The notes under the pieces are model-generated. The model did not search any database, had not been told where the DNA came from, and worked only from the letters and a program-made list of their open reading frames with translations. Positions 21,909-34,881 of a stretch of DNA of 64,000 nucleotides are shown here, piece by piece. Both the position numbers and the translations under genes were made by a program. How positions within the stretch are numbered: the stretch's first letter is position 1; each line of letters starts with the position of its first letter. The stretch is from Hoylesella buccalis ATCC 35310 (GTDB lineage: Bacteria; Bacteroidota; Bacteroidia; Bacteroidales; Bacteroidaceae): assembly GCF_025151385.1 (NCBI RefSeq), contig NZ_CP102287.1, positions 2,914,001-2,978,000 on the forward strand, written 5' to 3'.

Positions 21909-23297
21909 CTAAGAAGATGCCTGTTGCATCTTATGGAGCCACTTGCCACTGAACAATCGGTACAAGAAAATACAGCCTCGGAAGGCCAATTCAATGGCCA
22001 TGGCCGTCCAAACGCCCGCCAGTCCATATTGAGGAGCCAGCATGGCGGCCAAGGTGAGGCGCACGCACCACATGGACAGCAGGTTCATCATGGCAGGTTT
22101 CAGGGTGTCACCAGCCCCAACGCACACACTGTAAACAACGATGGCAGCAGCAAAGAAAGGTTCGGCAAAGGCTTCGATGCGCAGGCTCTGGATGCCCAAT
22201 ACACGGATTTCCTCCACCGGTGTGAGCACACCAATCATCTCCGGAGCGAAGATGTACATCAGTATACCCATGAAAGCCATGACGCCCATGCCCAGCCACA
22301 CCGTCATGTGAGCGAAGCTCTTGCAGATGTCATACCGCCTGGCACCCGCACTTTGTCCCACCAACGTGGTTGCCGCTTCACCGATACCATATCCCGGCAT
22401 GTAGCAAAGGCTCTCGGCGGTGATGGCGAAAGTATTGGCTGCGATTGCCACTTTACCCAAAGGTGCCACGATGATAATGCTGACAATCTGCGCGCCACTC
22501 ATCAGAATAGATTGTGCAGCCATCGGTGCACCTATCTTCAAAGCGTTCGTGACATAGTTTGACATCCATCTGAATGGACCCTCGTCTTGCTTCAAAGCCA
22601 ATATCTTGTTGCGGAAGATGGCGAAGTAGGCCTGCATCACCGAACCAATGAGGTAGGCAGTTGCGGTTCCAAAAGCTGCTCCCAACACCCCTAAATGCAA
22701 AATGTAGATGAAAAAATAATTAAAACACACGTCCATGATGCACATGCCCACACTCATCATACTGGGTATTTGCATGTTGCCCGAGCATTTGAGCATAGCC
22801 CCAGTGAGGTTGGCCAGTTGGATGAAAGGCATGGCTAAAGCAAACACCAGGAAATAAAGCGAGGCATCATGTGCGATGTCTTCCGTTCCGCCCAGCCAGT
22901 AGGGTAGTGGTTGATAAATAAACAGTGCAATGACCGCAATAACCACACTTAACAGAAGACAACAGATAAGTCCATGCCTGAACACTTGTCGTGCTTTCAC
23001 AAAGTCGTTGGCTCCGATAAAATGGGCTACCTGCACGGAGAAGCCCATGGATGCCGAGGCGGTGATGCTGCCCAACAACCAGGTAGTGCTTTCTACCAAA
23101 CCAATAGATGCTGACGGATTGGTTCCCAAATGTCCCACCATCGATGCGTCGATGAAGAACATCAGTACGGTGGTGATTTGGGCAAGAATAGACGGAATAC
23201 TCAACTGTACAATCAAGTTGAGTTTCTCCCCATTCGTCATGACTCTGCCCTCACGAATGCTGGCCAGCAGCGCATCTGTCTTGGTTGTTGAAAACAT
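21909..23297 (-). CDS. MATE-family multidrug/cation efflux transporter
   Basis: A 462-residue inner-membrane protein with about 12 hydrophobic segments and the MATE layout (LSIPSILAQITTVLMFFIDA near the N-terminus; GASMGFSVQVAHFIGA-like; VGAGDTLKPAMMN near the C-terminus). It should export cationic compounds by Na+ or H+ antiport. The frame is open to 23513, but the upstream part is a 66-bp direct repeat carrying promoter boxes, so I start at 23297 (MFSTTKTDALLASI). The substrate is unknown. Confidence 0.9.
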   Translation of the reverse strand: MFSTTKTDALLASIREGRVMTNGEKLNLIVQLSIPSILAQITTVLMFFIDASMVGHLGTNPSASIGLVESTTWLLGSITASASMGFSVQVAHFIGANDFVKARQVFRHGLICCLLLSVVIAVIALFIYQPLPYWLGGTEDIAHDASLYFLVFALAMPFIQLANLTGAMLKCSGNMQIPSMMSVGMCIMDVCFNYFFIYILHLGVLGAAFGTATAYLIGSVMQAYFAIFRNKILALKQDEGPFRWMSNYVTNALKIGAPMAAQSILMSGAQIVSIIIVAPLGKVAIAANTFAITAESLCYMPGYGIGEAATTLVGQSAGARRYDICKSFAHMTVWLGMGVMAFMGILMYIFAPEMIGVLTPVEEIRVLGIQSLRIEAFAEPFFAAAIVVYSVCVGAGDTLKPAMMNLLSMWCVRLTLAAMLAPQYGLAGVWTAMAIELAFRGCIFLYRLFSGKWLHKMQQASS

Positions 23298-23318
23298 CTC
23301 GTTTAATTCTGTGATACA

Positions 23319-23450
23319 GATAGTGCCAGCCGAAGACAAACGAAGTTTACTTGCTTTGTTGAGGCGCAGCCTATCATTTGCAAAGATAGTGCAAGCCGAG
23401 TGCAATGAAAGTTTACTTGCTTTGTTAAAGCGCAGCCTATCTTCTGCAAA
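23319..23450 (-). repeat. tandem 66-bp promoter/leader duplication before the MATE gene
   Basis: Copy 1 (23319-23384) and copy 2 (23385-23450) share GATAGTGCnAGCCGA, GTTTACTTGCTTTGTT and GCGCAGCCTATC. On the minus strand the boundaries carry TACCTTTG (23447-23454) and TATCTTTG (23381-23388), both exact -7 boxes. The matching position at the inner end is degraded (TATCTG). Confidence 0.85.
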
Positions 23451-23608
23451 GGTACGGATTATAATTTGTTTTGGGTGAGATTTTCCAGAAAATCCTTTAC
23501 GATTACGTTCCATGTATCAACACATCGTCCAGACAGGCGGAACGTGATGAATTACGCCTCTACATTGTTCGAAAAAATGACAATAAAATTGAACGTGTGA
23601 ATGTGAAA

Positions 23609-24042: not shown

Positions 24043-24546
24043 AAAAAAAGCGATTCACCTCTTCAGTGTAATCGCTCCTTATCATATTGATTTCTTTCTA
24101 TAATCTCTCAAAAAGGGAAGTATTTTTGTTTCTCTCACGCCCCTCCCGCGGCGTAGCCAGTGCAGCATATTGCTGCGACTAGGCTTTTCATCCAATCCTA
24201 AACAATCTTTTACCTAACCTTCTCCAACGCTTATCGTGTGGTTGGAGCCTTTTACTATTGAAGATTTCTCCTTACTAACAACCTTAAACTTTACCTTAAC
24301 TAACCCTATTTTCGTCTATCCTAAAACACTTTTACCTTGACTAAACCTATCTTCTGTCTATCCTAAATCTTATTTACCTTGACTAATACCTTTTCTATGT
24401 TATCCTCTGTCAAACCTTCTCTTTACCAACTAATACCTGATATCTTCATCTTTTACCTTTGGGTCTAATACCTATGATATCTCTCAAATTTTCAATTGAA
24501 TCGATTTTATTTCGAACGTCTCCCGACATCCTTTTTGTCTCATTGA
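24043..24546 (-). ncRNA. candidate regulated orphan transcript with ~43-nt repeats
   Basis: The minus strand has a -7 box TATCTTTG (24552-24559) with a TTG exactly 20 bp upstream, and a hairpin plus seven T's at 24043-24075, defining a roughly 500-nt transcript. Inside, GGTATTAG, GGTTTAG or GGGTTAG recurs at about 35-47-nt steps (plus-strand marks near 24472, 24437, 24390, 24347 and 24306, again at 24219), mostly followed by AAGGTAAA. A stable GCAGCA-ATA-TGCTGC hairpin lies near 24170. The only ORF of note is a 27-codon frame at 24446-24529 (MSGDVRNKIDSIENLRDIIG...). No match to tmRNA, RNase P or 6S RNA was recognised. Confidence 0.45.
24050..24075 (-). terminator. intrinsic terminator of the orphan transcript
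   Basis: On the minus strand GCGATTACAC, loop TGAAGAG, GTGAATCGC (one bulge), then TTTTTTTAT. A strong Rho-independent terminator with no ORF directly upstream. Confidence 0.8.
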
Positions 24547-24551
24547 CGTTG

Positions 24552-24592
24552 CAAAGATACTGCTGTTTCCGCGCACAACCAAGAAACAGCAG
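24552..24592 (-). promoter_or_regulatory. promoter with palindromic operator in its spacer
   Basis: Minus-strand TTG (24580-24582), 20 bp, then TATCTTTG (24552-24559). CTGCTGTTTC (24583-24592 read on minus) and GAAACAGCAG (24560-24569) form a perfect 10-bp inverted repeat with a 13-bp centre, occupying the spacer and the -33 element. This is the geometry expected for a dimeric repressor site. Confidence 0.65.
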
Positions 24593-24661
24593 GTAGTTTT
24601 TACACAAAAACAGTGTTTCTTGATGTAAATCAAAATGAAATTGATATATCCATATAACGGC

Positions 24662-24709
24662 AAAAGGCCAAGCAAGTCGTCCGAATTTGAAGGACTTGCT
24701 TGGCCTTTT
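24662..24709 (-). terminator. terminator of the FKBP lipoprotein gene
   Basis: AAAAGGCCAAGCAAGTC (24662-24678) and its exact complement (24693-24709) flank a 14-nt loop, 16 bp after the FKBP stop on the minus strand. Confidence 0.85.
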
Positions 24710-24724
24710 AAGCTGGCATTCAGC

Positions 24725-25384
24725 CTATTTCTTGATCCAAGAACCTGATACCACACCGGCTCGGGTAGGAGCTTTGGGGCGATAATAACCCGCCAAACCG
24801 ATATCGAAGATCAGCGTTGAATAGCCGGGGATTTCGCTTTTGGGAGCTTTCTCCGTACCATAGCCCAATTTATAAGGTATGTAAACCTCCCAACGGTCAC
24901 CAACAGACATGTGCAACAGAGCCGTGGTAAAGCCGTCGACAAGTCCGCTCACCGCAAATTTGGCAGGATTCATGGTCTGCGGATTGTACGCACCCGAATA
25001 GCTACGGTCGAACAAATAGCCTGCTGTATAGGTGGCTGAGGGGATGAGGCGGCCACGGTAGTTCACCATCACCGAATCGGTGTACAGCGGACTGCCAGAG
25101 GTACTGTTGCCACGTTCCAACACATGCACGATGATATAATTGTTCAAATCGGCATGAAAGTTCTGTCCGTCGGCTGGCAACGACCAGTTGCGAATGATCA
25201 TCCAGTTCTGGTCGCCCTTCGCAATTCGCTCTTGCGTGGCGGCATGAAGCTGTGCGAAATAGGTTTCGTTCTTATGTTGCCAATCGGCAAACTCTTCCAC
25301 CTCGCCGCTGTCTTCGCTACACGATGCCATCGTGAAGACAGCCATCATGAGCAGGAGAAGGTAGCATATTGAATTTTTCTTCAT
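24725..25384 (-). CDS. FKBP-type peptidyl-prolyl isomerase lipoprotein
   Basis: A 219-residue envelope lipoprotein (lipobox TMASC, Cys about 22). After an acidic linker and a helical N-terminal region it has an FKBP fold at about 100-205: SVMVNYRGRLI, LFDRSYSG, GLVDGFTTALLHMSVGDRWE and YIPYKLGYG, with closing STLIFDIGLAGY. The order FDxS...GxxxGxxxALxxMxxGxxxxxxIPxxLxYG is diagnostic. It probably assists folding of exported proteins. Located just downstream of glyS on the same strand. Confidence 0.93.
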   Translation of the reverse strand: MKKNSICYLLLLMMAVFTMASCSEDSGEVEEFADWQHKNETYFAQLHAATQERIAKGDQNWMIIRNWSLPADGQNFHADLNNYIIVHVLERGNSTSGSPLYTDSVMVNYRGRLIPSATYTAGYLFDRSYSGAYNPQTMNPAKFAVSGLVDGFTTALLHMSVGDRWEVYIPYKLGYGTEKAPKSEIPGYSTLIFDIGLAGYYRPKAPTRAGVVSGSWIKK

Positions 25385-34817: not shown

Positions 34818-34881
34818 AGTTGCTGTGTGTGATATTATGATTTGAATGATGATGTTGTGCGGTATTAGTCCCCGCTACTTG

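Follow-up and report, generated by a model that had tools for sequence, protein, structure and literature searches.

Bacteria possess several RNA sponges, among them SroC, the chbBC intercistronic RNA and the tRNA 3' external spacers, whose sequence complements the seed of a small RNA (sRNA) encoded in trans. Tandem ligand sites within one noncoding RNA occur in CsrB and CsrC, where the ligand is a protein, and in animal microRNA sponges of the ciRS-7 type, where one small RNA has many sites in tandem. We describe a predicted RNA built around an array of ~42-nt repeats (the array RNA) that resembles each of these in part. It differs from the described bacterial sponges in being a stand-alone transcript with a regulated promoter and six near-full-length sites in tandem, and its titration of an sRNA is a prediction. 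The predicted ligand is an sRNA and not a protein as for CsrB and CsrC. Unlike ciRS-7, the array RNA is linear and bacterial, lacks Argonaute and would form near-full-length duplexes.

Among described sRNAs, FopS (RF04319, of B. thetaiotaomicron; PMC11697453) shares with the array RNA the GGTATTAG/AAGGT core motif and, in our genome, a promoter box. The array RNA is no FopS member: it is a long array without the UUUUUCAU seed, and a comparison with RF04319 in Rfam gave no match up to E 10. FopS targets susC-type mRNAs in B. thetaiotaomicron and is bound by RbpB at a 41-nt motif in its single-stranded parts, and both FopS and GibS pair with start regions (accessible parts of PMC11697453 and PMC7366714). 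The term "sponge" does not occur in the accessible part of the FopS paper (PMC11697453). BTnc060 (RF04184, a 213-nt model) is kin of the predicted partner, an sRNA gene that we call X, and not of the array RNA; we found no BTnc060 papers in the open-licence literature. Our main reading, at a probability of about 0.6, is that the array RNA is noncoding and acts as a multi-site sponge titrating the BTnc060-like sRNA X.

The locus and its predicted transcript

The analysed window is a stretch of 64,000 nucleotides from a genome (G000) consisting of a single contig of 3.31 Mb. The element is flanked by two minus-strand genes, named by resemblance: one for an FKBP-type lipoprotein (24725-25384) and one for a MATE transporter (21909-23513). 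The features outside the pairing sites are as follows.

24620..24633, minus strand: Crp/Fnr-type palindromic box TTGATTTACATCAA, from sequence
24560..24577, minus strand: conserved spacer element TGTGCGCGGAAACAGCAG, between -33 and -7, the right arm of the inverted repeat of the earlier note
24552..24559, minus strand: -7 box TATCTTTG, from sequence
24043..24545, minus strand: predicted transcript of ~503 nt, ends inferred from the -7 box and the terminator
24515..24530, minus strand: small hairpin GATGTC-GGGA-GACGTT; different stems with GNRA loops stand here in two relatives (L002, L012)
24155..24185, minus strand: hairpin AGCC.AGT.GCAGC...GCTGCACTGGCT, stem letters identical in L001, L020 and L002
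24043..24076, minus strand: intrinsic terminator, stem 24050-24076 followed by T7 at 24049-24043

An earlier note, made from the letters alone, had proposed an isolated transcript with a hairpin-T7 terminator and no long open reading frame. The terminator is real: it folds as the terminal stem of the RNA, and it is absent from the listing of a simple terminator scan. Isolation by an FKBP terminator is borne out by an inverted repeat at 24662-24709. The longest frame that the note had named, of 27 codons (24446-24529), is present; comparison with two relatives found it retained in the sister species (L020) and absent from L002. Searching the window against Rfam returned, as the sole gathering-level match in the window, one tRNA; matches below gathering were those expected by chance. 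The whole RNA folds somewhat better than its shuffles (z -2.2, 4 of 100). Covariation terms for its own structure were -0.67 and +1.34, giving that structure weak support, and the term was unfavourable for three close sequences. Ten MATE-linked relatives align well and leave many pairs invariant, so that covariation is hardly informative among them.

Two similar copies of ~60 nt, beginning CAAACGAAGTTTACTTGCTTTG and CAATGAAAGTTTACTTGCTTTG, lie at window positions 23315-23460, under the predicted MATE N-terminus. The MATE frame probably starts further downstream than predicted.

A conserved box marks the promoter

The promoter read in the earlier note, TTG-20 nt-TATCTTTG, is present on the minus strand. 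The perfect 10-bp inverted repeat that it placed in the spacer is also real (CTGCTGTTTC, 24560-24569, and GAAACAGCAG, 24583-24592, with a 13-nt gap), and each arm occurs once in the 64 kb, but the repeat fails as a conserved operator: among 69 related promoters, only 3 have at least 7 of the 10 positions complementary. The control element that is conserved, in place of the 10-bp repeat, is a TTGA-N6-TCAA box lying ~60 nt upstream of the -7 element. Its copy here, TTGATTTACATCAA, is the sole TTGAT-n4-ATCAA in the window and had been overlooked. With at most one mismatch, the box was found in 59 of 67 related promoter loci, 41-43 nt ahead of the conserved spacer element; six of the eight unboxed loci are etfB promoters. 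The etfB promoters (L024-L027, L030, L041) have the TGTGTGCGCAAAAAG spacer element in common and no TTGA-N6-TCAA box.

The exact promoter pattern was found in 45 stretches titled Prevotella, Prevotellaceae, Segatella, Xylanibacter and Marseilla. With up to three mismatches allowed, and the etfB promoters counted, 52 of 150 genus genomes contain it, against 0 for the reversed control.

At 56-64 nt from the -7 element, the box occurs four times in G000 and 35 times across six genomes, against 0 in each for the reversed-pattern control; a palindromic box at a fixed spacing in the promoter is the arrangement of a Crp/Fnr-type regulon. The four G000 promoters belong to the window RNA, a leader-like RNA (L095) and two FopS sRNAs. 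A 29-aa hydrophobic frame stands behind a fifth promoter, whose box differs by one letter and keeps the 60-nt spacing. G000 encodes two Crp/Fnr-type proteins: one resembles PDB 1zyb and the other, of 204 aa, has ETLSR in its recognition helix. The ExxSR signature recognises TTGAT in FNR. As a separate candidate for the box of the window we tried the published Cur consensus, wwwTATGTTnTAnAACATAwww (accessible part of PMC6989115), which does not fit.

The leader-like RNA (L095, G000:C1:2797057) and its counterparts L090, L098, L106, L116 and L125 combine the box promoter with a conserved leader AGATTGTTTAGGTTAGTAGTAATAGATTTAGG and a GCCGTGAGG hairpin. Its GibS-like score is weak (32.9 bits against a gathering score of 115), and its duplex with X reaches -34.7 (0 of 100 shuffles). 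A palindrome, TGTGTNCGNACACA (G000:C1:2797038-2797051 and places in five relatives), is rare and mostly adjoins the box, suggesting a second regulator.

The suspicion of an undescribed regulated RNA thus survives in part: the RNA has its own promoter and terminator, is kept in relatives and is probably noncoding, while the embedded 10-bp operator drops out. The evidence supports a regulated, probably noncoding RNA whose repeats fit a ligand.

The repeats match one partner sRNA

We counted AAGGTAAA four times and GGTATTAG three times in the 503-nt transcript; none of 2000 dinucleotide shuffles matched either count. Tandem Repeats Finder reported a period of 42 with 2.4-2.8 copies. The six or more degenerate ~43-nt repeats claimed from the letters are there, with a period of 42, since the more degenerate units bring the number to six upon comparison with the partner RNA X. 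Across 464 kb, GGTATTAG is intergenic five times, three of them in the window RNA and one in a FopS gene, a distribution that rules out the reading of a generic 5'-UTR motif. The one other intergenic copy in the window lies outside the array RNA, at 34861 on the plus strand. AAGGTAAA is less specific (11 intergenic copies, four of them in the window RNA, and 27 in coding sequence). The FopS core GTATTAG-n0-6-AAGGT[TA]A occurs four times in the 464 kb: in the two FopS genes and twice in the window RNA.

Among 150 genus genomes, GGTATTAG-n0-6-AAGGTAA was found in 74 and the reversed pattern in 10. The loci fall into two kinds, box-promoter leaders and a gene bearing the motif on its antisense strand. 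The latter is X, a conserved small-RNA gene that lies in G000 at about G000:C1:863128-863221, distant from the array locus, and whose 5' half is the reverse complement of the array repeat unit. On its own strand X carries TAnnTTTG, then GTTATCCTGAA[AT]ACAATCTTTTTACCTTA-n-CTAATACCTA and a terminator. We picked 45 loci for a 6-nt gap and confirmed X at 40, from 38 genomes; the other five (L220, L267-L270) are not X and were omitted from the conservation count. The search pattern was exact and the counts of X are lower bounds. In all 40 loci the core is unchanged save at a few positions and the -7 box stands at 33-34 nt. All six X loci scanned match BTnc060 (RF04184; E 2e-11 to 1e-7) at 59-78 bits, short of the gathering score of 228.9. 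X is therefore related to BTnc060 and no formal member of RF04184: it shares the conserved half of the model, whereas the first half has no good match in X. The X core had 0 matches in viral contigs; the short motif was scattered among the matches listed there, a result without a control that we did not use.

In two X promoters (L246, L250) a single nucleotide separates a perfect TTGAT-n4-ATCAA box from the -7 element downstream of it, a position typical of a repressor; the X gene of G000 has no such box. A box with at most one mismatch stands within 60 nt in 6 of 40 X promoters.

Predicted pairing places six consecutive, non-overlapping X sites in the array RNA, over 24190-24477.

24448..24477, minus strand: X site 1, -27.7 kcal/mol, 27 bp
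24397..24438, minus strand: X site 2, -41.1 kcal/mol, 35 bp
24356..24391, minus strand: X site 3, -35.7 kcal/mol, 35 bp
24314..24351, minus strand: X site 4, -34.5 kcal/mol, 38 bp
24261..24310, minus strand: X site 5, -32.2 kcal/mol, 39 bp
24190..24236, minus strand: X site 6, -27.7 kcal/mol, 35 bp

Sixty dinucleotide shuffles had on average 1.18 sites at or below -22 kcal/mol, with a maximum of 3, against the six observed, and the energy sum of the best six was -198.9 against -28.7 in shuffles (sd 21.7, lowest -72.0). The array RNA thus shows one trait expected of an sRNA sponge, extended complementarity beyond chance to a trans-encoded sRNA. The sites are slightly more unpaired than the rest of the RNA (0.53 vs 0.42). 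The X complement is as long as the repeat period of ~42 nt, and this accounts for the position of GGTATTAG and AAGGTAAA at the head of the units. We also scanned 464 kb of the 3.3 Mb of G000 for X targets, evaluating only windows with a 7-mer match (3,884 of 20,562). The top window and six of the ten best lie inside the array RNA. Energy alone is not specific: unrelated places account for three of the top ten windows (-36.9, -34.1, -31.5), and the best 25 do not include the second FopS gene. Together, complementarity and repeat structure support the view that the repeats match one specific partner, the BTnc060-like sRNA X.

Conservation of the sites in relatives

A DNA search of 60 genomes, the host included, matched 12, all of its own genus. 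One relative (L002) aligned over query positions 35-577 at 69% identity and with the same gene order; the other matches covered the promoter or the repeats only. The order glyS-FKBP-element-MATE recurs at several loci, and other loci of the promoter family adjoin ksgA or sit elsewhere. Predicted X sites were present in all 14 relatives tested: eight in L037, seven in the sister species L020, five each in L002 and L019, and two or three in the ten others. The sister species has one extra repeat unit. In L037 the ~8 sites form tandem units of ~54-59 nt, followed by a 26-aa hydrophobic frame.

Pairing with X divides the 59 boxed loci into two modes, 39 with z between -2.2 and -12.8 and 20 near zero (25 shuffles each, loci with <330 nt behind the promoter omitted), with the proviso that shuffles ignore relatedness among loci and that some tested relatives are close to one another. 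All 20 non-pairing loci have a short peptide frame, and 12 adjoin ksgA. The boxed peptide mRNA of G000 also pairs poorly with X (-21.7, matched by 24 of 100 shuffles). Box and X sites are therefore separable. None of the eight unboxed loci paired with X at z < -2.

Hydrophobic frames of 24-34 aa follow the same promoter class at ten loci (L005, L007, L009, L010, L029, L033, L039, L042, L108, L154), several of them beside ksgA; peptides from seven of these ten, searched against NCBIfam and Pfam, gave no match over cut-off.

Such frames bring in the main rival, in which the RNA is the long leader of an mRNA encoding a hydrophobic peptide of 26-27 aa, X binds the leader and affects stability or translation, and loss of the peptide in the lineage of the window has left a relic or by-product. 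Gene order speaks for it, since glyS-FKBP-element-MATE occurs together with the peptide frame in L029 and L070 and partially in L011, L022, L033, L054, L056, L058 and L065. Differences among the peptide genes fall mostly at third codon positions (134, 74, 247), and X sites are present in the peptide-gene leaders too. Their placement there is less favourable: across 15 relatives that have a peptide frame, 39 of 41 X sites stop no less than 57 nt short of the ATG and two weak ones lie behind it, so that X does not lie on the start site, which speaks against a plain start-site block. The conserved hydrophobic frame behind the leader, found in other relatives, is missing from L001, L020 and L002, where a candidate 18-aa frame changes residues or frame. 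It is also missing from the ten aligned MATE-linked relatives, and X sites are kept in those tested. The extra unit of the sister species, whether gained or kept, is hard to square with a relic. We regard this rival as unlikely.

FopS, RbpB and the protein alternative

FopS was found in 114 of the 121 family genomes examined. The two FopS sRNAs of G000 (L089, L101) score 80.2 and 72.2 bits against a gathering score of 56, and both genes have the box at the spacing of the array RNA, a promoter design in common. We also fetched 30 FopS loci, of which 29 come from other genera, and found a perfect TTGA-N6-TCAA in three. Ten of the 29 scored (L184 was too short and omitted) had a sequence with at most two mismatches to ATGTTnTAnAACAT, which forms the core of the Cur consensus (accessible part of PMC6989115). 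In five FopS promoters of other genera (L165, L171, L174, L175, L181), the -7 element is preceded at 41-42 nt by ATGTTnTAnAACAT-like boxes with 0-2 mismatches. Outside Prevotella, FopS may therefore be part of the Cur regulon.

The FopS core motif repeated in the array RNA, together with the binding of RbpB to a 41-nt FopS motif (accessible part of PMC11697453), would also fit a decoy of the CsrB/CsrC or RbpB-FopS kind, in which the purine-rich repeats and the FopS core would be bound by one and the same RNA-binding protein. We consider this improbable. No RRM_1 (RbpB-type) protein was detected in G000 at E 0.001, where the control, Bacteroides ihuae, was positive, and RRM_1 occurs in 28 of 121 family genomes (one of seven in the own genus) as against 114 of 121 for FopS. 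The repeats moreover equal the X complement in length, a match not required of a protein motif. The earlier note had also suggested that the repeats could bind a protein. Its further idea of pairing with many mRNAs, that is, a multi-seed antisense regulator acting on start regions as FopS and GibS do (accessible parts of PMC11697453 and PMC7366714), is very improbable, as the 20 best duplexes formed with 330 translation-initiation regions averaged -30.9 against -33.3 (sd 1.3) in 12 shuffles of the repeats, which thus pair less well than their own shuffles. The FopS 5' seed did slightly better on the same 330 regions than shuffled seeds (2 of 40 shuffles reach it).

A possible three-layer circuit

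X itself is predicted to pair with the two FopS genes of G000 (-35.0 and -30.2; 0 of 100 shuffles in either case). A duplex is likewise predicted between the BTnc060 and FopS consensus sequences of Rfam (-28.4, 0 of 200 shuffles), and the antisense relation is therefore not special to Prevotella. Under the sponge reading, one molecule of the array RNA would hold several X, and FopS would be left free for its own targets. A Crp/Fnr-family activator, for which the 204-aa protein at G000:C1:961440 is a candidate, would turn on FopS and the sponge jointly, so that the sponge would be made together with FopS and would shield it from X. More tentatively, and with somewhat less than even odds, we propose a three-layer circuit of the Prevotellaceae: a stand-alone tandem-array RNA titrates an antagonist of FopS that is BTnc060-like; one Crp/Fnr-type activator governs both sponge and FopS, which together replace the RbpB switch in RRM-less genomes; and sponge strength is adjusted as ~42-nt units are gained or lost.

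FopS sRNAs control glycan uptake in B. thetaiotaomicron. If the circuit holds, they would gain both an RNA antagonist and an RNA protector, which suggests a means of FopS control where RbpB is missing, and BTnc060 would gain a testable partner in Bacteroides. The array RNA would be a natural sRNA sponge of the tandem-array kind, its strength readable from the number of repeats, and a bacterial counterpart of the multi-site microRNA sponges.
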